A DNA stretch of 9,795 bases from Actinomycetes bacterium (GTDB lineage: Bacteria > Actinomycetota > Acidimicrobiia > Acidimicrobiales > RAAP-2). The DNA lies in the NCBI GenBank assembly GCA_021850345.1, contig JAJZMN010000170.1, forward strand, positions 1 through 9,795. Direction: 5' to 3'. Below the pieces are notes generated by a model. That model did not search any database, was not told where the DNA came from, and saw only the letters and a list, made by a program, of their open reading frames with translations. Position numbers and translations under genes: made by a program. Below are positions 1 through 9,794 of the stretch, in pieces. The first letter of the stretch is position 1. Each line of letters opens with the position of its first letter.

Positions 1-984
1 CTCGACGCGCTCGCCGATGTGCAAGAAGCGGTGTTCTTCTCCGTCGCGTCGCTCCTCAACCTCGAGCTCGATCTGCTCTTCTTCGACACGAGCTCCACCT
101 ACTTCGAGACCGAGCGCACAGACCCAGAGCCCGTCGACGGAGACGACGGCGACGGAGACGACGACGACTCGGAAGCACCGCTCGAAGAGGCGGGGCTGCG
201 CCGCTACGGACGGTCGAAGGACCACCGCCCGACACTTCCCCAGGTCGTGGTCGGCATGGCCGTCACCAAAGAGGGGATCCCCGTCAGGCTCTGGACGTTC
301 CCTGGCACAACGTCGGACCAGGTGATCATCCGCAAGGTGAAAGACGACCTGGGAGGCTGGGGCCTGCACCGGGTCATCTGGTGCCTCGACCGTGGCTTCA
401 ACTCGGCGGACAACCGGCGCTACCTCGAGCGTGGAGGTGGGCACTACATCGTGGGCGAGAAGCTCCGCTCCGGCCAGGCCGAGGCGAAGGCCGCCCTCTC
501 CCGCCAGGGCCGCTACCGCCTCGTGGCGGACAACCTGCGCGTGAAGGAGGTGCGTGTCGACGACGGGGTGATGCGCGACCGCTTCGTCATCTGCCACAAC
601 CCCGAGCGCGCCGCGCACGACGCCGCGGTCCGGGCGAACATCGTCGCCGAGCTCTCCTCGCGCATCGCCGGATCGGACCAGCTGAGCGCGACCCGGCGCG
701 CAGAGCTCTACGGGAAGCTCTCGACCAAGGCGGTCTTCAAGCGTTTCTTGCGCCGGACCGCCACCAACAAGCTGCGCATCGACAAGGCCGCGATCACCGC
801 CGAGGCGCACCTCGACGGCAAGTTCCTCTTGCGCACCGACGACGAGAGCCTGTCGGCCGAGGACATCGCGCTCGGCTACAAGTCGCTCTACGAGGCCGAG
901 AATTGGTTCACCCACAAGTTCCTGCCGGCCCTCGACACTTTCCCCAAGCTGGACATCCAGGTCAACCCGTCACCAGCGGCTTGA
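1..984 (+). pseudogene. IS1634-family transposase, N-terminal and central part, interrupted
   Basis: DDE transposase of the IS1634 group. The frame is open from base 1, so the gene starts upstream of the window; the in-frame GTG at 19 is unlikely to be its start. Visible motifs are the first catalytic Asp in LFFDTSSTYFE (codon 85-87), the second in WCLDRGFNSADNRRY (codon 388-390), and the Y-(2)-x-(3)-E block GYKSLYEAE, with the catalytic Glu at 898-900. A very acidic linker (about 118-190, rich in GAC/GAG codons) lies between the two Asp residues. Directly after Glu the family pattern stops. The last 27 codons (901-981) are foreign and end in TGA at 982-984. The expected continuation is found at 4436. 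The protein lacks the conserved Lys after Glu and the C-terminus, so it should be inactive. Confidence 0.88.
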
Positions 985-1014
985 GAGAGCCTCCAGAGGA
1001 TCCTTGAAGTATGC

Positions 1015-1030
1015 TCAGGATTTCCTGAAG
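1015..1030 (+). repeat. Left inverted repeat / palindromic recombinase-site candidate
   Basis: TCAGGATTTCCTGAAG matches the reverse complement of 4408-4422 (TCAGGATTACTGAAG) with one mismatch and one indel. The first 14 bases are also a perfect dyad, TCAGGA-TT-TCCTGA, the shape of a paired recombinase binding site. A looser direct copy, AGGATCC-TTGAAG, lies just upstream at 997-1009. The repeat is about 114 bp from the inferred left junction, against 13 bp on the right, so the ends are asymmetric. Its role as a binding site is inference. Confidence 0.5.
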
Positions 1031-1045
1031 ACTGATCACCAATCA

Positions 1046-1068
1046 TCAGCTTCTGCTCGAGAAGCTGA
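1046..1068 (+). promoter_or_regulatory. Perfect 9-bp hairpin in the recombinase leader
   Basis: Arms TCAGCTTCT (1046-1054) and AGAAGCTGA (1060-1068) pair perfectly around a 5-base loop. The structure ends 6 bases before the GGGAGG ribosome site of the recombinase gene. It could act in the mRNA to limit recombinase translation, or as DNA to bind a recombinase or the HTH protein. There is no U-tract to suggest a plain terminator. Confidence 0.45.
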
Positions 1069-1074
1069 ACTGGC

Positions 1075-1080
1075 GGGAGG
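1075..1080 (+). promoter_or_regulatory. Ribosome binding site that selects the recombinase start
   Basis: GGGAGG lies 5 bases before GTG at 1086. It overlaps the in-frame GTG at 1080, which therefore cannot be the start served by this site. Confidence 0.6.
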
Positions 1081-1085
1081 TGGAC

Positions 1086-2144
1086 GTGGCGGCTCTGGCG
1101 GTCGTTCGAGACATCCGGTCCCCGCGGTCGCTCGAGACGGACGAAGACGCCGCCGCCTATCAAGAGAATCTGCTCGCTGAGTTCGTCCTCGCGCGCTCGG
1201 CTCACGGGGTCGTCGACGCGACGGTGCGCGGCGACCTCGCCGCGATCGAAGAGTTCCTCTCGTTCGCAGGTGTCTGGGCATGGGAAGTGGAACCGATCCA
1301 CGCCGATCGGTTCCTCTCGGTCGCCCAGCGCGACAAGGCGGCGCGGACCCGCCAGATCAAAGCCCAGCGGATCGCGACCTTCTACCGGTTCTTGGAGTCG
1401 CGCTATCAAGGCGAGCTCGCGGAGCTCACCGGCAAGATCGTCACCTCGCCGATCGACACCGTCAACCGCCCGGTGCACGGCGGGGACTTCTCCGTCAGGG
1501 TCCCGCCCTCCGCGCCCGACCTCGCCGCGTTCTTCTCGTCCTGGCGGAGCGAGCTCCCGAACGCCCGCAAGTGGCGCACGGCGGCGCGCACCTACACGAT
1601 GGCTCGCGTCACGGCCGAGGTGGGACTGCGGGCAGCCGAGCTGTGTGGTCTGCGTCTCGACGACTGCCATTTCGACCATGGCCCGCTCGGCAAGATCCAC
1701 GTCCGCCTCGGCAAGGGGGCGCGAGGTTCGGGCCCACGCGAGCGGCTGGTCCCCATGCTCGGCACGGCGCGTTCAATGCTCGAGTGGTGGGTGCGCGAGG
1801 TGCGTGGCTGCTTCGACGACGACTTCGACCGGCCACGCGCCGTGCTCTTCCCCTCAGAGCGCGGCGGCACCATCACTCCTGAGGCATTCCGTCTCCCGCT
1901 CGCCATCGCCGCTGCGAACTACCTCCGTGGCCCCGTGCGCGAGCTCACGCCGCATGGACTTCGACACGCCTGTGCCTCCAACCTCTACGCCCAAGGCGTC
2001 GGTCTCGTGGCGGTTCAAGCGGTCCTTGGGCATCGCTGGCTGACCACGACGCTCCGCTACGTTCACGTCTCCGATGAGACCGTCGAGGCTGAGTACGCGG
2101 CGGCGGCGGAGCGCGCATCGAGGCGCTTCCTGTCACCAGAGTGA
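1086..2144 (+). CDS. Tyrosine recombinase, TnpA-like (complete catalytic set)
   Basis: Integrase/transposase of the phage-integrase (XerC/D) family, 352 residues from GTG at 1086, close to the size of TnpA of Tn554. Residues about 20-110 form an Arg- and helix-rich core-binding domain. The catalytic domain shows R182 (in VGLRAAELCGL), K210 (LGKGARGSG), H290 and R293 (in HGLRH), H316 (LGH) and the nucleophile Y325 (in TTLRYVHV). All expected residues are present, so it should cut and rejoin DNA through a 3'-phosphotyrosine. A slightly longer reading from GTG at 1080 is possible but lacks a usable ribosome site. It is the first gene of the nested element and is followed 31 bases later by the HTH gene. 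Likely role: excision and integration of the element. Confidence 0.9.
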   Translation: MAALAVVRDIRSPRSLETDEDAAAYQENLLAEFVLARSAHGVVDATVRGDLAAIEEFLSFAGVWAWEVEPIHADRFLSVAQRDKAARTRQIKAQRIATFYRFLESRYQGELAELTGKIVTSPIDTVNRPVHGGDFSVRVPPSAPDLAAFFSSWRSELPNARKWRTAARTYTMARVTAEVGLRAAELCGLRLDDCHFDHGPLGKIHVRLGKGARGSGPRERLVPMLGTARSMLEWWVREVRGCFDDDFDRPRAVLFPSERGGTITPEAFRLPLAIAAANYLRGPVRELTPHGLRHACASNLYAQGVGLVAVQAVLGHRWLTTTLRYVHVSDETVEAEYAAAAERASRRFLSPE

Positions 2145-2175
2145 GGATCTCTGCACGAGAGCGAAGGGAAGAACG

Positions 2176-2490
2176 ATGCGCTGGAACCTGCGGATGGTGG
2201 CGGCCGAGCGAGGGGTGTGGCGATCCACTGACCTCCGGCGGGCCCTCGCGGACGCCGGTCTCGAGATGTCCGCCGGCAAGATGAGCAACCTGTGGTCGGG
2301 CACGCCCATCACGATCCGGCTCGACGACCTCGACGTCATCTGCGCGGTGCTCGACTGCTCCCCTGGCGATCTCTTCGTTGCCGAGCCTGCGGCTGCGCCC
2401 GTCGACGTCTCGGTGCCGAAGTCCCCCCGCAGCAGTGACGTCCGCCCCGCTCGGCGCCAGCGCAACGAGCGGTCGGTCCCCCCGGCGTGA
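2176..2490 (+). CDS. Small Cro/C1 (XRE)-type helix-turn-helix protein
   Basis: 104 residues from ATG at 2176, with GAAGGGAAG just upstream. Residues about 5-72 fit a Cro/C1 helix-turn-helix domain: a leading helix (RMVAAERG), a helix-turn-helix around LRRALADAGLEMSAGKMSNLWSG with Ser replacing the more usual Glu/Asn context, and the typical end IRLDDLDVICAVLDCSPGDLF. The remaining tail is Pro/Arg/Ser-rich and probably disordered. The stop overlaps the next gene's start (GTGA at 2487-2490), implying translational coupling. It lies where Tn554-type elements would carry their third small gene, but between the two large recombinase genes. It may be an operon repressor or a DNA-bending factor for transposition. 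The HTH assignment is firm; the role is inferred. Confidence 0.8.
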   Translation: MRWNLRMVAAERGVWRSTDLRRALADAGLEMSAGKMSNLWSGTPITIRLDDLDVICAVLDCSPGDLFVAEPAAAPVDVSVPKSPRSSDVRPARRQRNERSVPPA

Positions 2491-4328
2491 GCCCGGCGAA
2501 GCTCGTCGCCTGCAAAGCGTGCGGCCGCCTCGCCCCGCACCAGGCCAAGGGGCTGTGCGCACGCTGTTACGCCAAAGGGCCCCAGCGAAAGATCGTCTGC
2601 GTCGACTGCGGTCGCTTCTGGCTCGAGCACCGAGGCGGCCGCTGCGCCCGTTACTACCGCCTGGCGCGCATGACGGTGAAGACGTGCAGCGCCTGCGGCG
2701 AAGAGCGGCTCGCCTGGGGTCCTACCTGCCGACGGAGCCTTCTTCGGGCCCGTTCTTCGCCTGGTGCCTGCAAGCGGTGCGCCAGGGAGGTCGCACGGTT
2801 GTGGGGAGGCCGCTGCACGCGCTGCGCGAAGACCCACTTCACGGCGACGACGTGTGCGAGCTGTCTTGGATGGTCGGCCAGGATCGAGGCCGGCCGGTGC
2901 CGAGGATGCAGAGAATTCGAGCGCCACAACGTCCTCGACGCGCCGTGTCGGTCTTGTGGCCGCATGCTCCGCGTCAACCGCTTCGGGCGCTGCCGGCTCT
3001 GCACGGTCACCCGGCGCAACCTGCACGCGGCGGGAGACCCGGCTTGGGCCGAAGAGCCCGGTCGACACGCCGGGATCCAACTGTTCTTCACCGACGTCGA
3101 GGGGCGCGGACGACACCGAGGATCGTTGCCCGCCTCGCCGTCCATGCGAGCAAGGCACGGCACCGGCGTCGTCCAGCAGCGGATGTTCGTGCCGCTCGAC
3201 GCTCGGCAGATTCCAAATGCTGCACCACCGGGAACGCTGCCCTCCGATCTCGTGAGCGCCGTCAGGGCGTTCGCCGATGCGCGTGGGTGGAAGGCATCTA
3301 CGACGGCGGGCGTGACCCGAGCGGTCCTGCTGCTCGCCGGCGAGGGGTCGTGGTCGCTCAGCGAACCGGTCGTGTCCGAGCTCCGCAGGCTCCGCCTGCC
3401 GGTGAGCCGGGTACGCGAGTTCCTCATCGACCACGGCGCGCAGTTTGCCGACGACCGCACCGTCGCCTGGATCGACCAACACCTCATGACGTTGGCACCG
3501 ACCGTGCGCGTCGAGATGACGGCATGGGTGGAGGCCCTCGATGGGAAGGCGCCTGGGGGAAAGGTGCGCGGGGGCGGCACCCTCCGTCACTACGTGGCGG
3601 CTGTGGCGCCCGTGATCACCGAGTGGTCGCAGATCCATGGGTCACTTCGCGAGATCAGCTCCGAGGACGTGGCCAGCGCGGTGGCCGAGCTGGAGGGTTC
3701 CAGGCGAGTGATGACGGCGGTCGCGCTGCGCTCGTTGTTCAAGACGCTGAAGAGCCGGCGGCTGATCTTCTCGGACCCGACGAGGGCGCTTTCGCCGGGT
3801 CGGTTTCCTTCGACCCCGGTGCTCGGCCTCGACCCACCCAGTCGCTCGATGCTGCTGTCGTCTCTCGAACGAGCCGACCAACGTCTCGTCGTGCTCCTCG
3901 CCGGAGTGCACGCGCTCAGCAGAGCCGACATCATGGGGCTCCACCTCGACGACATCGATCTCGACGCCGAGACGATCGAGGTCCGGGGGCACCGCAGACC
4001 GCTCGAGCGCCTCGTGGCCGACCACGCCGTCGCCTGGCTCGAGATCCGTCGGCAACGATGGCCACGCAGCGCGAACCCACACCTCCTCGTCACCGAGAAG
4101 TCCGCCTACGGGATTGGCCCGGTCTCGACGGGCTACTTCAAGGGAGTCTTCGCCCGGCTTCCCACGACCGCCGCCGATCTGCGCGCCGACCGACTGCTCG
4201 CCGAGGCCGTCGACAGCGGCGCTGACCCCTTGCGGCTCGTGCGACTGTTCGGTTTGAGCCCCGCCGCCGCAATGCGCTACTGCGCGGCGGCCGTCGGCGA
4301 ACAGGCACAGGCGGCCGAGCATCCCTGA
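2487..4328 (+). CDS. TnpB-like protein: six zinc-knuckle-like motifs plus degenerate tyrosine-recombinase domain
   Basis: 613 residues from GTG at 2487, translationally coupled to the HTH gene. Residues 9-172 hold six Cys motifs beginning at C9, C38, C67, C95, C123 and C154 (spacing 28-31). Five follow C-x2-C-x11-C-x2-C; the third has x10. Motifs 2 and 3 lack the final Cys (Y56, S84). A mostly helical region follows, then a tyrosine-recombinase core from about 440: MGLHLDDIDLDAETIEV, DLRADRLLAEA and FGLSPAAAMRY. R566 and the putative nucleophile Y598 are kept. The HxxR His is A563, the GH motif is GL (L590), and the first catalytic Arg position appears to be S478, with R479 one residue later. 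TnpB of Tn554 has a similar size (about 630). A likely role is accessory strand transfer or target recognition beside the complete recombinase. It could instead be active with a shifted catalytic set. Confidence 0.82.
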   Translation: MSPAKLVACKACGRLAPHQAKGLCARCYAKGPQRKIVCVDCGRFWLEHRGGRCARYYRLARMTVKTCSACGEERLAWGPTCRRSLLRARSSPGACKRCAREVARLWGGRCTRCAKTHFTATTCASCLGWSARIEAGRCRGCREFERHNVLDAPCRSCGRMLRVNRFGRCRLCTVTRRNLHAAGDPAWAEEPGRHAGIQLFFTDVEGRGRHRGSLPASPSMRARHGTGVVQQRMFVPLDARQIPNAAPPGTLPSDLVSAVRAFADARGWKASTTAGVTRAVLLLAGEGSWSLSEPVVSELRRLRLPVSRVREFLIDHGAQFADDRTVAWIDQHLMTLAPTVRVEMTAWVEALDGKAPGGKVRGGGTLRHYVAAVAPVITEWSQIHGSLREISSEDVASAVAELEGSRRVMTAVALRSLFKTLKSRRLIFSDPTRALSPGRFPSTPVLGLDPPSRSMLLSSLERADQRLVVLLAGVHALSRADIMGLHLDDIDLDAETIEVRGHRRPLERLVADHAVAWLEIRRQRWPRSANPHLLVTEKSAYGIGPVSTGYFKGVFARLPTTAADLRADRLLAEAVDSGADPLRLVRLFGLSPAAAMRYCAAAVGEQAQAAEHP

Positions 4329-4407
4329 ACCCGCCTACGGTTCGCGCCAACTGTGGACGATCTGCGCCACCGCGGCCCAGATTGCCCCAAGTTCCCGGTC
4401 AGTAGCC

Positions 4408-4422
4408 CTTCAGTAATCCTGA
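4408..4422 (-). repeat. Right inverted repeat of the nested element
   Basis: CTTCAGTAATCCTGA is the imperfect reverse complement of the left repeat at 1015-1030. It lies 79 bases after the stop of the large gene and 13 bases from the transposase junction. It overlaps GAACTT at 4421-4426, which is the inverse of AAGTTC at 4389-4394 and of AAGTTC at 916-921 near the left junction. Confidence 0.5.
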
Positions 4423-4435
4423 ACTTTCGGCCTTC

Positions 4436-4771
4436 CGACGCTGGCGCGACCTCAAGCGCACGAACCTCAACCTCCGTCCGCTCTACCACCGGCGCGAGGA
4501 CCGCATCCGCGCGCACGTCCAGCTGTGCGGGCTCGCGCTCTTGGTGCTGCGCGTGGCCGAGGTCGCGGTGGGCGACACCTGGCGCAACATCCGAAACGAG
4601 CTCGACCGCATGCACCTCGTCACGATGGCGACCTCGGAGGGAAGGGTCTCCCAGCGAAGCGAGCTCACTCCCGGCCAGCGGCGCGTCTTCGCCGCGCTCG
4701 AGCTCGCCGATCCCCCGCTCTTCTTCGACTTCACCCCTGCAGCCGAGCCCGAAGAGGCCTCAAGCCCCTGA
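4436..4771 (+). pseudogene. IS1634-family transposase, C-terminal part
   Basis: This frame reads RRWRDLKRTNLNLRPLYHRR, then EDRIRAHVQLCGLALLVLRV, and on to the stop at 4769-4771. It is the family's conserved continuation after the catalytic Glu, including the Lys of the Y-R-E-K signature (WRDLK), the LRPLYHR and EDRIRAH blocks, and the end region (HLVT...SELTPGQRRVFAALEL). It joins the part ending at base 900 to give YEAE-RRWRDLK without gap. No start codon or ribosome site serves it as a separate gene; a TTG at 4541 opens the last 76 codons but is unlikely to be used. Confidence 0.88.
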
Positions 4772-4801: not shown

Positions 4802-4906
4802 ACCCCCTCGCACCGCCGGCGAGACTTCCCTGCTCAGCGCCCCAATTTCGGCGACGACCTGCCTACGAGCTGCGGAAGTCCGGACAGTCCGGCGTGCCGA
4901 TGAGGT

Positions 4907-5169
4907 GAGGAGGTGCCAGTGGGCAAAGAGCGTGGGCTGTCGCAGCTGTGCTGCGTCCAGCCAGCGCCATGCTCGGTCGGGACGTCCTCGGAGTCTTTGA
5001 ACTTCTGCATTGCCCATCGGACGAGGTGTTCATCGATGCGCGCCGCGATGGCGTACAACTCGGAGCGGTAAAAGGGCCCGTAATAGTTGATCCAGCCTCG
5101 GACCTGGGGATTGATCTCCCGGGCGAGGCCGTACAGGTCCGTTCCACTGCGGCGGTTGAGGTGCCATGT
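4907..5169 (-). pseudogene. Group II intron reverse transcriptase/maturase, C-terminal remnant with frameshift
   Basis: Read on the minus strand, the sequence gives the maturase C-terminal (GIIM) block: KTWHLNRRSGTDLYGLAREI, INPQVRGWINYYGPFYRSEL, then IDEHLVRWAMQKFK. At about 4996 the frame shifts, and the next frame continues with RLRGRPDRAWRWL and QPTLFAHWHLL, the usual end of these proteins. All reverse transcriptase domains are missing upstream, so only about 87 of the usual 400 or more residues remain. An intact protein of this family acts in intron splicing and retrohoming; this copy cannot. Downstream (4802-4840, minus strand) is a GAGC...GCGAGGGGG stretch that may be a decayed intron domain V, but it does not fold convincingly by eye. 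Confidence 0.82.
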
Positions 5170-5370
5170 CTTACCCTGATATCGCAGCCGGGCGCGTCGA
5201 GCACCGTTTCTGGACCGATCAGCCAACGTTGACGCTCCAAGAGTGCTCCGATAGCAATGACGAGGTGATCGATCTCGCCGATCGCTCGCGTGAAGCGCGC
5301 AAAAGTGCGGTCAATGATGACCTCGGGCCTGGCTTCGCCCCCCCTGTGGCCATGCCCTGGAGGGCACTGT
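5170..5370 (-). other. Unrecognised open stretch between two gene remnants
   Basis: The minus strand stays open here in the frame of the DUF6431-like remnant, giving a helical-looking peptide (RTFARFTRAIGEIDHLVIAI, then GALLERQRWLIGPETVLDAP). I recognise no family. GCACTCTTGG occurs on the minus strand both here (around 5240) and at the end of the readable DUF6431-like part (around 5375), so the segment could be an insertion or rearrangement product bounded by a short direct repeat. It may be noncoding. Confidence 0.25.
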
Positions 5371-5603
5371 GCCAAGAGTGCCTCGGAGCGCCCACAGGGC
5401 TCGCAGCGGGCACTGTGGACGAAGATCCGGTGCACGGTGTCCGCTTCTCGTACGGCACGCGGGTAGGAGTCGTCGAAGGCCATCGGTCGAGCGCACCTTG
5501 GACAGTGCTCGCGCGGCGCGGGCGCCGTACAGCTCAGCGCGGCGTACTCGGCAACCGAGAACCGGTACGACCACTCGAGCGACACAGCCCTCGCGTCGCA
5601 CAT
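5371..5603 (-). pseudogene. DUF6431-like Cys-rich protein, N-terminal part, truncated
   Basis: From ATG at 5603 on the minus strand, the peptide has two paired-Cys sites, CPRCARPMAFDDSYPRAVRE and ARCEPCGRSEALL, separated by VHRIFVHS. This resembles the zinc-ribbon-like DUF6431 family, found in actinobacteria and often near transposases. After SEALL the family normally continues with a Pro-Ser/Ala-Phe, Arg-rich segment. Here it departs into unrelated sequence and eventually runs out of frame across the maturase remnant. The function of the family is not established; a DNA-binding part of a mobile element is plausible. Confidence 0.55.
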
Positions 5604-5695
5604 GGCCGACGACCAAGCACCGCCTTCAGCCCCGGCCAGATGGCAACGCGTCCACAGAGTGCGTTGCCGAAACGCCTCCCCTGGTGGTCGAACAA

Positions 5696-5851
5696 TCACG
5701 CCGCCAACACTTCGTCGATCGTCGCGCTAACTGCCAAGAGCGCGTTCAGCCTGGCGACGAGGTGGAGGCTCGCTCGCGGGGTGATCCGGGCGTCAGGGGC
5801 GCCCAGGATAATGGGCCGCGCGCGAGGGTTCTCATTGGGTATCCTTGCCAC
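5696..5851 (-). pseudogene. Short transposase-like N-terminal fragment
   Basis: A 51-residue minus-strand frame from GTG at 5851 to TGA at 5696-5698. It reads NENPRARPIILGAPDARITP, then RASLHLVARLNALLAVSATI and DEVLAA. The pattern of a TP-x-A-x-L segment, a Leu/Val helix and an IDE start resembles N-termini of some actinobacterial DDE transposases (IS1380-like). The match is from memory and weak. If right, nearly all of the gene is lost. It may otherwise be a chance open frame. Confidence 0.3.
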
Positions 5852-5877
5852 CCGACAGGTGCCTTCGCTCAGGGTTC

Positions 5878-6060
5878 GGCGCCTTGTTCGACTTCACCGG
5901 CGCACGCTGGTCGCTCGAAGGAGTAGAATCGGTGCTCCAGCAGCGCGCCGCACGAGCCAACAGTGATCGGTCCACCTTCTGGCGCTACCACTGAGGCGAA
6001 GAGCACAAGCGAATACACGAGAGCCGCTATGCTGAAGGAATGATCTCTCTGGCGGCGTGA
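5878..6060 (+). pseudogene. ISKra4-like transposase, C-terminal remnant with in-frame stop
   Basis: In this frame the sequence reads FDFTGARWSLEGVESVLQQR, then AARANSDRSTFWRYH, TGA at 5992-5994, and GEEHKRIHESRYAEGMISLA up to TGA at 6058-6060. ISKra4-family transposases end in a very similar way: TGARW-(S/G)-L-x-G-x-E-(A/S)-(V/I)-L-x-L-RA, then a W-x-(F/Y)-H block and a final H-x-S-R-Y. Similarity continues past the internal TGA, so that stop is a mutation within the gene rather than its end. Everything upstream of about 5878 is lost or unrecognisable. Confidence 0.7.
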
Positions 6061-6087
6061 TCACTCCCTACCCGGTAGCCACGACCA

Positions 6088-6126
6088 TATACATTGTATA
6101 GAGTTGATCGACATAGGGTCGTCAAC
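6088..6126 (+). promoter_or_regulatory. AT-rich palindrome and second dyad upstream of the ferritin-like gene
   Basis: TATAC-ATT-GTATA (6088-6100) has perfect 5-base arms and is the most AT-rich spot in the window. Next to it, GTTGATCGAC (6103-6112) faces GTCGTCAAC (6118-6126), an inverted repeat with one missing base. They lie 100-140 bases before the ATG at 6227. They fit a promoter with an overlapping operator; TATACA or TTGTATA could serve as the -10 element, but no clear -35 is seen. The rest of the 166-base gap from 6061 holds no coding signal. Confidence 0.4.
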
Positions 6127-6210
6127 TTCGGTTGATGCGAAGACTGTCGCAGCCGGCGGTTCGTACACCAGCTCTCGGGACTTGACCGGCAGCAGTACCA
6201 TCTGGACTGA

Positions 6211-6220
6211 GAGGAGGAGG
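6211..6220 (+). promoter_or_regulatory. Strong ribosome binding site setting the start at 6227
   Basis: GAGGAGGAGG lies 6 bases before ATG at 6227. The frame is open further upstream, to a TTG at 6104, but that start has no such site and would lie inside the palindromic leader. Confidence 0.75.
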
Positions 6221-6226
6221 GCCGAG

Positions 6227-6787
6227 ATGTCTACGGCGGACGCGCTTGAGGGTCGCTCGGAGGAATCGGCCGACAATGGCAGGACGGATGGCTCTATGCC
6301 CGGCTTCGAGCGAGCCATCGAGGGCCTACGAGAGAGCGGCGCGAGCGTCACGATCCGCGAGCTCGTCGAGCTCCTTTCGCGCCACGGCGCCGACGAGGCG
6401 CGCATCCTCGCAGACTATGAGCGGCTCTCGACGACGACGAGTGACCCAGCCGCGAGGTACCTCGTCGACTTCATACTCGCTGACGAGCGACGCCATCATC
6501 AGACTCTTGTCGACATGGCGACATCGATGGCCTGGGGAGACCTCGGCTCGGCGGGGATACCGGTCCCGACGTCCAGCTGGCACATCGACCAAGGACTGCT
6601 GGCCGCCACCCGACGCCTTCATGACTACGAAGATCATGACCGCAAGGAACTACAGCGCCTTCGCCACCAGCTCCGCCCGTTCGAAAAGACCACCCTGTGG
6701 GGCCTCCTCATCGATCTCATGATCCTCGACACCGAGAAGCATGCCAGGATCTTGAAGTTTCTCGAGGACCGCGCGCGCGACCGCTGA
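6227..6787 (+). CDS. Ferritin-like (four-helix) domain protein
   Basis: 186 residues from ATG at 6227. After a polar, probably disordered start of about 35 residues, the protein is nearly all helix. Two helices carry metal-ligand-like motifs: LADERRHHQTLVDMA (ExxH, about residues 85-99) and LILDTEKHARILKFLED near the end. Between them are an Arg/Glu-rich helix (LHDYEDHDRKELQRLRHQL) and TTLWGLLIDLM. Paired E/H motifs on neighbouring helices are typical of ferritin-like or rubrerythrin-like diiron proteins. The second motif is not a clean ExxH (T at -3, E at -2), so metal binding is uncertain. No signal peptide is seen, so it is probably cytoplasmic. It stands alone, convergent with the oxygenase operon. 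A role in iron or oxidative-stress handling is inference. Confidence 0.6.
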   Translation: MSTADALEGRSEESADNGRTDGSMPGFERAIEGLRESGASVTIRELVELLSRHGADEARILADYERLSTTTSDPAARYLVDFILADERRHHQTLVDMATSMAWGDLGSAGIPVPTSSWHIDQGLLAATRRLHDYEDHDRKELQRLRHQLRPFEKTTLWGLLIDLMILDTEKHARILKFLEDRARDR

Positions 6788-6839: not shown

Positions 6840-6858
6840 GGCGAGTTGGCTACTCGCC
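6840..6858. terminator. Perfect hairpin between convergent genes
   Basis: GGCGAGT (6840-6846) and ACTCGCC (6852-6858) pair perfectly around a 5-base loop. The hairpin includes the stop codon of the RidA-like gene (6850-6852) and lies 53 bases after the ferritin-like gene. No T-tract follows on either strand, which is common for actinobacterial terminators. A weaker stem with GGAGC and GCTCC arms lies beside it at about 6798-6822. Confidence 0.45.
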
Positions 6859-7239
6859 GTCCGGCACGAACGCGACCCCGTCGATCTCGATGACTGCACC
6901 GTCGAGGATCAGATCGGCAATGCCGATCGCAGTGCTCGCGGGCAAGGTGGAGCCGAAGACCTCCCCCCGCACATCGTTGTACGTCTCGTACTGGTCGAGC
7001 GAGGTTAGGTAGGCGGTGAGCTTGACCACGTGCTCGGACCCACCACCGGCCTCGGCGACCGATGCCAGGACATTGTCCAAGGCTGCTCTCGCCTGCGCAC
7101 GCATGCCGCCGGGCACGAGCGAGCCGGAGCCGTCAGTGCCCATCTTGCCCGCGATGTACACCCACGTCCCAGCCCCTTTCACTCGCAGCGATCCACTGAA
7201 GCTCCGACCCGCAGGTCCGGCAGAGCGTTCGACCGTCAT
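6850..7239 (-). CDS. RidA/YjgF-family protein without the usual catalytic Arg
   Basis: 129 residues from ATG at 7239, with a GGAGAAAGGGAAG purine tract upstream; the length is normal for the family. Family signs are the opening strands (GTWVYIAGKMG), the helix QARAALDNVLASVAEAGGG, VVKLTAYLTSLDQYETYNDVRGEVF, and the end STAIGIADLILDGAVIEIDGVAF. RidA enzymes hydrolyse reactive enamine/imine intermediates and use an Arg in a VARLP-like motif. Here that place is IADLI, with Asp at the Arg position, so classical imine deaminase activity is doubtful. The frame is open far upstream inside the neighbouring dehydrogenase, but the ribosome site and family length fix the start at 7239. It is the last gene of the oxygenase operon, 35 bases after the dehydrogenase. 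It may help hydrolyse or tautomerise a pathway intermediate. Confidence 0.85.
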   Translation of the reverse strand: MTVERSAGPAGRSFSGSLRVKGAGTWVYIAGKMGTDGSGSLVPGGMRAQARAALDNVLASVAEAGGGSEHVVKLTAYLTSLDQYETYNDVRGEVFGSTLPASTAIGIADLILDGAVIEIDGVAFVPDGE

Positions 7240-7274
7240 GAATGCGCTTCCCTTTCTCCTCGTGGCAACGGACC

Positions 7275-8351
7275 CTACGATCCGTTGGATCCGCTGCCGC
7301 GGTCTGCCAGCAATTCGAGTTTGTCTATCGCCGCGGCGAACGCGACACGTTCCGCGTCGAACGGCGCGCGCCCGAGACCTGCCCGCCAGTACTTCGGCAG
7401 TGCCGCCTCCAGACGCTGGTAGCCCTCCTCGACCTCCGGTGGGATGTCGTAGTCGTACCAGACGCGATAGTCCCCGTAACCGTTGTCGTAGTTCCAGTCC
7501 GGAGTGTGGTACAGACGCCCGGTGACCGGCGGCTGCGCAGCCGACTGGGCGCCGAGGAACAATGCGAGCGGCAGCATGTGCTCGCAGACGAGCGGGCGCA
7601 TGAAGTAGACACCACCTCCGCCCCTGGTGAACGCTTGCGCCGTCGCGTCGAACCATGAAGCGCGGGTATGACCGGGCATGATCGCGTTCACCGCGACGCC
7701 CTCGTTGAACAGCTCTTGTGCGAGGTAGAACGTGGCGGTCGTCAATGCCGACTTCGTGGCCTGGTATGGCGTCTCCGTGGTCCATGGCCGCGCGCCAAAG
7801 AAGGCACCGCCGCTCGAGGTCATAAGCACACCGCTGCTCACGATGTTCATGATGCTGCCACTGCCCGCCTCACGCATGGGCGCGACGAAACGTCGGATCA
7901 CCTTGATGGTGCCGAAGACGTTCACCTTGAACATCGCTTCCCAGTCGCTGTCCTTGGTGTCGAGGAGCTTGACGTGACCAAGAGGCGCGAACAGCGTCTC
8001 GGAGACGAGGCCGGCATTGTTCACCAGGATGTCGACGCGCCCGTAGCGTTCGATGGTCTCGGCGTAGAGCCGGTCGACTGCCGCATCGTCGGTGATGTCC
8101 GCCTCGAAGGACATCGACCGCTCCCCTGCGTCGAGGGTCTTGCGGTAGTCCTCCGAGCCGTTCCAGCTCTTGTCCGAGCTCACCACGGATGCCCCCGCTC
8201 GCAGCAGCCCGTCGACGACGGACCGGCCGATGCCTCGGGCGCTCCCGGTGACCACCGCCACGCGTCCCGCAAGCAACGGGCTGAACCGGTCGATCGCAGC
8301 GTCGACATGGGCGCGCTGCGTTCGGCGCAATTCATCAGCAACTTCGCTCAC
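7275..8351 (-). CDS. Short-chain dehydrogenase/reductase with long C-terminal extension
   Basis: 358 residues from GTG at 8351, preceded by AAGGAGAG at a normal distance. Classical SDR motifs are present: the NAD(P)-binding TGSARGIG (35-42), NNAG (111-114), the catalytic Ser in IVSSG (172/173) and YQATK with Y196 and K200. Classical SDRs have about 250 residues; this one adds about 28 at the N-terminus and about 85 at the C-terminus. The extension is rich in Tyr and Trp (YHTPDWNYDNGYGDYRVWYD, 281-300). In the same operon as a ring-hydroxylating oxygenase, a cis-dihydrodiol dehydrogenase or another alcohol-oxidising step is likely. The substrate is unknown. It follows the beta subunit gene after 73 bases. 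Confidence 0.9.
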   Translation of the reverse strand: MSEVADELRRTQRAHVDAAIDRFSPLLAGRVAVVTGSARGIGRSVVDGLLRAGASVVSSDKSWNGSEDYRKTLDAGERSMSFEADITDDAAVDRLYAETIERYGRVDILVNNAGLVSETLFAPLGHVKLLDTKDSDWEAMFKVNVFGTIKVIRRFVAPMREAGSGSIMNIVSSGVLMTSSGGAFFGARPWTTETPYQATKSALTTATFYLAQELFNEGVAVNAIMPGHTRASWFDATAQAFTRGGGGVYFMRPLVCEHMLPLALFLGAQSAAQPPVTGRLYHTPDWNYDNGYGDYRVWYDYDIPPEVEEGYQRLEAALPKYWRAGLGRAPFDAERVAFAAAIDKLELLADRGSGSNGS

Positions 8352-8424
8352 TGTGTCTCTCCTTGTTCAGTTCACTGGGGCGTCTGGGCGCGATCGGTGG
8401 CTCGGCGCGGGCAGGAGGGCGCGG

Positions 8425-8910
8425 TCAGAAGAAGATCGAGATGCCGCGGGGGAGAACCGTCGCATCCAGGTGGATCGTGCGGCGGCAGATCCTCCAACCG
8501 ACGTCGACCCGGCGAACCCTGTCGTCTCGGCGGCCGACCCACCACGCCTCGTCCCGCAACTTGCGAGCCTGACGGACCATGAAACTGCTCTTCACCTGCA
8601 CCTCGCCTTCGACCTCGTCCTCGATGAGGACGTTGGCGATCATGTGGCAGGTCATCGACACCGGGATCTCGACATGGGAGAAGCCCGTGTCGTCCTTCGC
8701 CACTCGAGTCATGAGAGTCGCCTTGTCGTCCTTGATGATCGGGTGCCCCGCAGGGGGGACCTTGCCCTGGACGTGTTCCGTGAGGGGCATGATGTACTCG
8801 ATGTCGTCCGTGAGGAGGTCGAGCCACTCCTTGTAGCGGTGCTCGTCGAGGAGGTGGGCCTCCCGGTAGAGCAACTGCTCGATCGCCATCCGGTCTTCGA
8901 TGCTCAACAC
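8425..8910 (-). CDS. Ring-hydroxylating dioxygenase, beta subunit
   Basis: 161 residues from GTG at 8910, a usual length for the family. It has the SnoaL/NTF2-like pattern of beta subunits: IEDRMAIEQLLYREAHLLDE at the start, RYKEWLDLLTDDIEYIMPLT, a central HVEIPVSMTCHMIANVLIED segment, FMVRQARKLRDEAWWVGRRD, and the final RRTIHLDATVLPRGISIFF. The subunit has no redox centre and builds the alpha3beta3 hexamer with the alpha subunit. Its start overlaps the alpha stop by 7 bases (8904-8910), a sign of coupled translation. A GGAGGAG run lies about 6-8 bases upstream. A longer reading from 8964 would run deep into the alpha gene and is unlikely. Confidence 0.92.
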   Translation of the reverse strand: MLSIEDRMAIEQLLYREAHLLDEHRYKEWLDLLTDDIEYIMPLTEHVQGKVPPAGHPIIKDDKATLMTRVAKDDTGFSHVEIPVSMTCHMIANVLIEDEVEGEVQVKSSFMVRQARKLRDEAWWVGRRDDRVRRVDVGWRICRRTIHLDATVLPRGISIFF

Positions 8911-9794
8911 CAGCGCTCCTCCTCCACGCGTCCACGGACCGAAGGGTCCATGAGCTCGAGCCATGCCCGATAGAACTCTCGCTGGTTCACCTCGGAAGGC
9001 TCCGCCCCGCAGTTGCCCGGCAGGTGCGGCAGCTGGTCCTCGTCGTAACCGAGGTGGATCTCATAGTTCATCGGATAGCGCCACGTCCGGGGCGCGCGTG
9101 ACGCCTCGACGATGCGCTCGAAGTTCTCGACGTCGTCGGGTGCGATGACGCCCGCCATGTGCTGGCCCTGGTAGACGCGCTGGACGGCGAGCTCCTTGAT
9201 GGAGTCGGGAGCCTCGCGCTCGACCATCGTCCACTGCCAGACCTCGTGGACGACCGGTCCACGCGGATGGAACAGGAGGAAGTGCTTCCCGATCATCGGG
9301 GACATGTAGCCCATGAGCCCAAGGTTGGGGAAGAGCAGGCCGTTCACGAAGCTGTCGGGGCGGGGCTCGTACTCCGACAGCGCCTTTGCCATGAGGTCGT
9401 GGCGCTCGCGGATCCACTCGAGCGCGGATTTCCCCAGCTGCCTTCCATGCTCAAGATCGCGCTCGTACAGCGACTCGGTGTGCATGCGAAGCGCGCCGAG
9501 CCCGAGAGGCGCACCCGAGCGGTACCCAGCGGTCACCTCGTACGTGCGTTCGTGCCAGGTGAGGGGGGACGTCGTCATAGGGGTGTGGATGCCTCGCGCA
9601 GTGAAGTCCTTCATCACGCGGATCCACGAACTGTGGGTGTGGACGAAGTGGTAGTTGTCGCCGATGAAGTTCTCCGCCATCAGCTTCCAGTTGGCGGGCG
9701 AGCGGTAGCGGTGCCAGCCGGGGAGGGCCTCCAGGCCGCCGATGGGCTCGGCGAGGACCAAGTGCTGGAGCCACCAGCGTACGTCTGCGCCGAG
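8904..9794 (-). CDS. Ring-hydroxylating dioxygenase, alpha subunit (partial, catalytic domain)
   Basis: Open from the right edge of the window to TGA at 8904. The N-terminal Rieske [2Fe-2S] domain must lie outside. Shown here is the catalytic domain beginning near LPGWHRYRSPANWKLMAENF. The mononuclear iron site is visible: D-x2-H-x4-H in GDNYHFVHTH (Asp at 9657-9659, His at 9648-9650 and 9633-9635) and the later carboxylate in IAPDDVENFERI, matching the SDDNEN region of naphthalene dioxygenase. The bridging Asp that links neighbouring alpha subunits is the one in GDNYH. The enzyme would add O2 to an aromatic ring, using electrons from a reductase and ferredoxin not seen here. Substrate class cannot be told. 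The in-frame ATG at 9761 is internal, not the start. Confidence 0.93.
   Translation of the reverse strand, partial: LGADVRWWLQHLVLAEPIGGLEALPGWHRYRSPANWKLMAENFIGDNYHFVHTHSSWIRVMKDFTARGIHTPMTTSPLTWHERTYEVTAGYRSGAPLGLGALRMHTESLYERDLEHGRQLGKSALEWIRERHDLMAKALSEYEPRPDSFVNGLLFPNLGLMGYMSPMIGKHFLLFHPRGPVVHEVWQWTMVEREAPDSIKELAVQRVYQGQHMAGVIAPDDVENFERIVEASRAPRTWRYPMNYEIHLGYDEDQLPHLPGNCGAEPSEVNQREFYRAWLELMDPSVRGRVEEERWC

Follow-up and report, generated by a model that had tools for sequence, protein, structure and literature searches.

In the 9,795-nucleotide stretch of contig JAJZMN010000170.1 from an Actinomycetes bacterium (hereafter the window, meaning the whole stretch analysed), an insertion sequence (IS) transposase gene of the IS1634 family is interrupted directly after its presumed catalytic Glu codon by an element of 3535 bp, at positions 901-4435 of the forward strand. 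The element comprises three genes, referred to as A, H and B, and is very probably a site-specific tyrosine recombinase (YR) transposon that inserts recurrently at this one codon of IS1634 transposase genes, using a short attachment site (attB) and the product of gene A as its catalyst. The same codon in four insertions, together with the support for the clade formed by three of the elements involved, points to a clade of site-specific transposons that target IS1634 transposases.

The left transposase part (1-900, forward strand, the 5' end lying outside the window) ends with the Glu codon at 898-900 and matches the family model NF033559 with E 3e-67 and 227.7 bits against a cut-off of 100, which establishes its membership in the IS1634 family. 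The match covers profile positions 113-389, extending three residues into the tail supplied by the element. Family similarity halts at GYKSLYEAE and restarts at 4436 with RRWRDLK, from where the right part runs to the stop codon (4436-4771, forward strand; E 4.3e-20, profile positions 387-481). In P0101, an uninterrupted relative of 470 aa, the counterparts of the two halves are directly adjacent (83% identity to residues 58-359 for the left and 77% to 360-468 for the right), so that no residue is missing and none is duplicated. A second copy of the window's interrupted gene, P0098 (285.8 bits with NF033559), has a longer N-terminus than P0101 and supplies the N-terminal part lying outside the window. 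Uninterrupted DNA copies of relatives with the same site were found 12 times in 11 loci; the two bases that follow the Glu codon are CG in 11 of them (L093 has CAC), and 8 of the 12 use GAA for the Glu. Judged from P0101 and these 12 copies, the ends of the insertion are precise and a target duplication is absent. A search for the junction among transposase proteins found 126 matches, 120 of which were listed: 111 read straight through, 6 lacked the motif as written and 3 did not fit, namely P0098, which is interrupted, P0110, which is uninterrupted with RGRRDLK, and P0210, a short end. P0098 was the only other interrupted transposase among the matches listed, in a search that needs shared 5-residue words and that diverged tails would therefore escape.

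Transposases of this kind bear the signature Y-(2)-R-(3)-E-(6)-K. The junction does fall between its Glu and Lys, as the sequence-only reading of the window had placed it, but the signature Arg which that reading assumed is replaced by Leu, both in the window and in uninterrupted relatives at the same site. The element adds to the truncated transposase an in-frame tail of 27 codons and a stop (901-984, forward strand, by translation), and in-frame tails are likewise present in two related insertions, L001 and L002. The transposase should be inactivated, given that its truncated product lacks the part after the Glu and carries the 27-residue tail instead.

Rules for the element ends were deduced from near-identical copies within the wider family: on the left 21 nt up to a GAGTTC-like hexamer, on the right 15 nt from GAACT. 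Applied to the window they place the ends exactly at 901 and 4435 (901-921 and 4421-4435). The left terminal sequence AATTGGTTCACCCACAAGTTC (901-921, forward strand) was aligned with the left ends of L001 and L002 and compared with other family ends, and the right terminal region TTCAGTAATCCTGAACTTTCGGCCTTC (4409-4435, forward strand) is conserved with both. The left end of the L002 element, at 448, was set by eye; the ends of L054 and of cargo-bearing copies are uncertain. Long terminal inverted repeats were not seen in the window, where the 25 longest of 202 pairs do not join both ends. The halves of the NF033559 match, their adjacency in P0101 and the family end rules together bear out the proposal that a recombinase element splits an IS transposase directly after the Glu codon, with halves that fit without a missing residue.

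Besides the window, three insertions occupy the same codon in the same orientation, and the transposases affected belong to two IS1634 subgroups. L001 is an Acidimicrobiaceae metagenome-assembled genome whose protein B is 53-54% identical to the window's; its left flank is GTCGAG, the six bases at the contig start, and its right flank encodes RRFRVMKDF (profile 387-482). L002 is from Leekyejoonella antrihumi (protein B 40-42% identical to the window's), with a left flank that belongs to this transposase family as far as LLAVE (profile 251-386) and a right flank that begins RGWRDMK. The profile break is thus at 386/387, the left part in L002 stopping at 386 and the right parts in L001 and the window beginning at 387. 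The fourth insertion, L111, is on a second contig of the L001 genome, which begins inside an identical right end and continues into RRFRVLKDF of a transposase; its position was fixed by alignment with L001. The transposase fragments of L111 and L001 are only 59% identical over that part, which argues for separate insertions. The right-end 16-mer occurs in 2 places of this genome, both adjoining an IS1634-type C-terminal part, while the reversed control pattern occurs in 0. Matching left-side contigs were not found in the same genome: the only occurrence of GTYGAGTATTGG there is at L001, and a search for a left transposase part of that type gave no match. Within the same class there are also uninterrupted copies that carry the site, including two (L090, L096) in the L001 genome itself. 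Aligning the halves, searching for uninterrupted copies and comparing the junctions of the element in other IS copies, all proposed in the sequence-only reading, gave adjacency in P0101, the 12 intact DNA copies, and the one codon shared with L001, L002 and L111.

That the nesting arose by chance, from an element that inserts broadly and from dead transposases that tolerate insertion, is extremely improbable. IS copies are frequent and dispensable targets, and the reverse nesting does occur, with an IS1634 copy within gene A of the L024 element; against this, codon and orientation are identical four times, and another clade of the family likewise holds a fixed position, at a methylase motif in six loci. 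Recurrence at one codon already contradicts chance nesting. For uniform and independent insertion into a 1.7-kb gene in either direction, the probability that three further insertions meet one nucleotide is about 2.5e-11. A common origin could also yield one position, if IS and element had been joined once and then inherited or moved as a unit, and the grouping of the IS1634-sitting elements as one clade would fit. We nevertheless regard a single old insertion as very unlikely, since an identical right end is found in two IS copies of the L001 genome whose transposase fragments are 59% identical, and since uninterrupted proteins (P0101, at 83%) are among the best-scoring listed relatives of the left part after P0098. 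The similarities of element and IS, taken over short stretches, moreover rank differently: the window's transposase is nearer that of L002 (67%, 24 columns) than that of L001 (53%, 34 columns), unlike its element, which is nearer the one in L001.

The flanks of these repeated insertions suggest what the transposon may recognise. All four right flanks start with CG[AG], and the three known left flanks (window, L001, L002) all end with G[TC]CGAG, which suggests, from three cases only, a preference of the element for the GAG codon of Glu. The right-end hexamer is GCCTTC in the window, L001 and L111, and GGGTTC in L002. Recognition might instead proceed via the IS or its transposase, for instance through a complex with transposase-bound DNA. 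Consistent with that, the L002 element has a fourth open reading frame (ORF; L002:3839-4150, 103 aa), which ends within the right end region of the element and in which residues 1-69 match the N-terminal domain of P0155, an intact IS1634-family transposase, at 58% identity. We give this possibility little credence, in view of the shared CG[AG] of the four right flanks and of sister clades that sit elsewhere than in transposases. The elements of the window and L001 have no room for such an ORF, the distance from B to the right end being about 107 bp and 115 bp, respectively. A guide idea, in which the right flank would resemble the left flank as appeared in some Streptomyces-type copies, was rejected: among 26 copies (L002, L024, L079 and L080 left out), left-right flank matches were no better than in shuffled pairs (direct p 0.69, inverted p 0.20). 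Separately, in eight copies (L012, L018, L020, L021, L027, L032, L046, L058) the right flank after the 15-nt end shows a half-conserved stretch of ~45 nt, often NNGG followed by CCC or GGT and sometimes by a later AAGTAG, with variable bases inside. The left flanks of these eight look unrelated, and L018 and L020, copies 99.9% identical, differ within the stretch.

The three genes of the transposon all point in one direction on the forward strand. Gene A (1080-2144) encodes a tyrosine recombinase of 354 aa (Phage_integrase, E 1.3e-24; XerD and XerA among its solved relatives) with a complete catalytic set of R184, K212, H292, R295, H318 and Y327. Gene H (2176-2490) encodes a Cro/C1-type helix-turn-helix (HTH) protein of 104 aa (HTH_26, E 1.6e-14). 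Gene B (2487-4328), whose GTG start overlaps the 3' end of H by 4 bp, encodes 613 aa that combine zinc-ribbon-like repeats with a degenerate YR domain, as seen from an alignment of 29 sequences and a weak match to phage integrases (phrog_1, E 1.4e-5). The N-terminal third of B contains conserved pairs of Cys arranged as in zinc ribbons, and the C-terminal half is YR-like, with GVHAL at the Arg-I box and with R566 and Y598 shared by all 29 sequences; no Pfam family matches B at E 0.1. The predicted structure (mean pLDDT 72.6, pTM 0.44) has as its best solved relatives Xer recombinases (XerA/XerD), a mycobacteriophage integrase, the Tn1549 integrase and Cre, with TM-scores so low and rmsd so large that the fold class alone is to be taken from the match. 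With catalytic residues missing, B is probably inactive as a recombinase. The description of everything between the two transposase halves as one three-gene recombinase element is upheld for 901-4435, to which the tail given to the transposase has to be added.

A profile search with B in species genomes returned 162 related stretches, the best 80 of which represent 78 loci, by their record titles nearly all Actinomycetota. The gene order A-H-B, that is, a YR, a small HTH protein and a zinc-ribbon protein with degenerate YR domain, was detected in 70 of the 78, some part of it going undetected in the remaining 8. Ten contigs of at most 3420 bp approximate the bare element, a pattern typical of assemblies that break at a repeated element. 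Viral contigs yielded no further copies; relatives of B occur in 94 plasmid records, at no more than 32.3% identity among the 20 listed. On the conjugative plasmid pNOCA01 of Nocardioides sp. JS614 (NC_008697.1:24370-27630, L127), a recombinase-HTH-hypothetical trio is situated inside a Tad gene cluster. The reverse nesting mentioned above is found in Pseudonocardia parietis (L024:3521-6585), where an IS1634 copy (match 5084-6349) stands between two parts of gene A and a second IS1634 copy lies at 12643-13908.

Target choice across the family follows phylogeny, with transposase, methylase and pilus-locus clades. From 90 extracted B sequences, 80 were used for a tree (12 loci named for dropping as duplicates or for partial ends), in which the three IS1634-sitting elements form one clade with support 99. 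Three target groups, marked on 14 rows with 66 left unlabelled, require 2 changes on the tree, the minimum, and 0 of 200 shuffles gave as few; near-copies favour this result, L086 and L088 of one genome having identical B rows. In six loci (L008, L022, L028, L052, L062, L064) the methylase motif H-x-[DE]-V-L-V-F follows residue 602 of B by 170-171 bp, and it occurs at other distances in L022, L033, L062 and L064. N6/N4 methylase families of Pfam matched flanks in four loci, L008, L052, L033 and L037, the last two not counted; the L028 methylase-side ORF tested had no Pfam match at E 0.01, the flanks of L022 and L062 were not scanned with Pfam, and C5-methylase genes lie in the left flanks of L049, L050 and L064. 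A TadE-like ORF is in the tested flank of five loci (L054, L059, L078, L086, L088), at a distance to the element that varies, so that the claim covers a neighbourhood and not one codon. Within the TadE-group clade, a GP88-like ORF in the left flank of L043 and a beta-lactamase-like ORF in that of L067 were unlabelled and uncounted. This flank survey applied Pfam to 40 ORFs (39 of 153 listed boundary-touching ORFs plus L002:1-447, picked for length and interest), of which 16 matched no family at E 0.01; matches below the curated cut-off were those of L054 (TadE, just under it), L008 right (methylase), L004 and L087. At L004:5382 and 8631 the neighbour of the element is a ParA/CpaE-like gene, with a CbiA match (E 0.001) that falls short of the curated cut-off; judged by eye, the element splits VDAD/PLGGGID in frame. 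L004 was not counted in the label test.

Taken together, the results are consistent with a mechanism in which gene A encodes the catalytic recombinase, whereas H and the degenerate B would probably be accessory, in DNA binding or in the control of direction. A presumed circular form of the transposon would recombine with a short attB, G[CT]CGAG/CGR, provided by the DNA of the Val/Ala-Glu-Arg codons within the Y-x2-L-x3-E-x6-K motif of IS1634-type transposases. Crossover may be placed inside or beside the G[CT]CGAG hexamer, and integration, without target duplication and in one orientation, would interrupt the transposase behind its presumed catalytic Glu, with loss of its activity as the expected result. 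Several points weigh against this reading. Neither a circular form nor an empty donor site nor a transposition event has been observed, and the IS of the window has no known empty allele at the nucleotide level. The sample is small, with four insertions known at the DNA level, and contigs break at the junction, leaving a left flank of 6 nt in L001 and none in L111. The comparison of element with IS similarity is based on just 24 and 34 columns, and the right-end hexamer GCCTTC/GGGTTC could come from the element or from a former target. Transposases are not the general target of the wider family, in which other clades sit at methylase genes or beside pilus genes, and the element is rare: among 390 genomes of one class, only the L001 genome has its right-end pattern (up to 2 mismatches). 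Window-like transposases occur in 7 of 395 genomes of this class (E up to 1e-40) and L001-type transposases in 9 of 395 (E up to 1e-10). Targeting of a conserved motif, from which many landing sites had been expected, is therefore supported as such by the four insertions in two IS1634 subgroups and by the uninterrupted sites in the class, but the occupied sites are few and the wider family is not bound to them.

A further step, which we consider possible but rather unlikely, would make the clade a parasite of the IS: it would disarm the IS1634 transposase at its catalytic motif and ride the disarmed IS, an intact copy supplying transposase in trans, with the N-terminal cargo of L002 occupying the IS ends or tuning the IS. 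For the site-specific transposon itself, the choice of target has importance in that many site-specific elements have one or a few sites per genome, while a conserved transposase motif multiplies and travels with the IS and would thus offer numerous dispensable sites and perhaps a means of transport. Within the family, related recombinases with switched targets form a natural series, useful for the evolution of target choice in YR transposons and bearing on whether the degenerate zinc-ribbon protein B sets the target. In the neighbourhood of the interrupted IS, a group II intron maturase relic (GIIM, E 1.1e-14) lies just downstream of the transposase gene on the reverse strand (4834-5226). Further on, the reverse strand of 6850-9761, likely a catabolic cluster near the IS, encodes an L-PSP/RidA-like protein, a short-chain dehydrogenase and both subunits of a ring-hydroxylating dioxygenase.

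As regards known systems, RITs, GInts, SEs and Tn554-like elements seem mechanistically similar to the A-H-B transposons, and several of them are highly insertion-specific (PMC3414803, PMC5385486, PMC10214605, PMC8138268); here and below, published systems are taken as excerpts of these papers portray them. The A-H-B gene set is absent among these elements as the excerpts describe them, and no description of an A-H-B family or of IS1634-motif targeting was found in the open-access literature searched. Tn554 and its actinobacterial relatives resemble the A-H-B elements in having several recombinase genes together and in the occurrence of related elements in actinobacteria; Tn554-related elements pair a short (~350 aa) with a long recombinase (611-828 aa), the long one with a potential catalytic motif, and some also have TnpC (PMC3414803). 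Relative to the Tn554-like plan of two catalytic YRs (TnpA, TnpB) and TnpC, B is without Arg-I and without Pfam match, and H is HTH_26 by Pfam, without having been compared directly with TnpC. On pNOCA01, a plasmid in the table of PMC3414803, two adjacent integrase frames (419 and 805 aa, 110500-113081) are presumably the Tn554-related short/long pair, apart from the recombinase-HTH-hypothetical trio. GInts (ginABCD) share several YR genes, one without catalytic parts, a high insertion specificity and the insertion of unrelated members at the same gene, ssb (PMC5385486). They differ by four essential genes, three of them YR-type, and by large cargo, and no HTH_26 gene is mentioned in the excerpt (PMC5385486); 901-4435 has two YR-type genes. 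SEs have the order intA-tfp-intB-srap with a non-catalytic YR-like Tfp, use few selected sites and show a 6-bp spacer adjoining their end motifs; they differ in two catalytic YRs, in their Gammaproteobacteria hosts and in a median size of 15.7 kb. The window's element has three genes only, with B degenerate, and its right-end hexamer type (GCCTTC/GGGTTC) is not identical to the target G[CT]CGAG, so that the published SE spacer rule does not fit simply.

RITs come close in size (~3.5 kb) and in three overlapping genes, and they have been reported inside a transposase gene, that of a Tn6049-related transposon (PMC3414803). Their three genes are YR genes with possible catalytic motifs (PMC3414803), as compared to one catalytic YR, one HTH protein and one degenerate YR in the window, and the case of RITs in a transposase is one shared location in two nearly identical strains, not recurrent targeting (PMC3414803). 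Given that report, a YR element lying within a transposase gene has precedent; what we did not find in the open-access literature searched is repeated homing to a single codon in transposases that have diverged from one another. Mobile elements that target other mobile elements are also represented by IS5075/IS4321 of the IS110 group, which insert in Tn21-type terminal repeats. They are like the window's element in this respect and differ from it in an unrelated recombinase and in a target that lies in the element ends, as opposed to the transposase gene that the A-H-B transposon enters.

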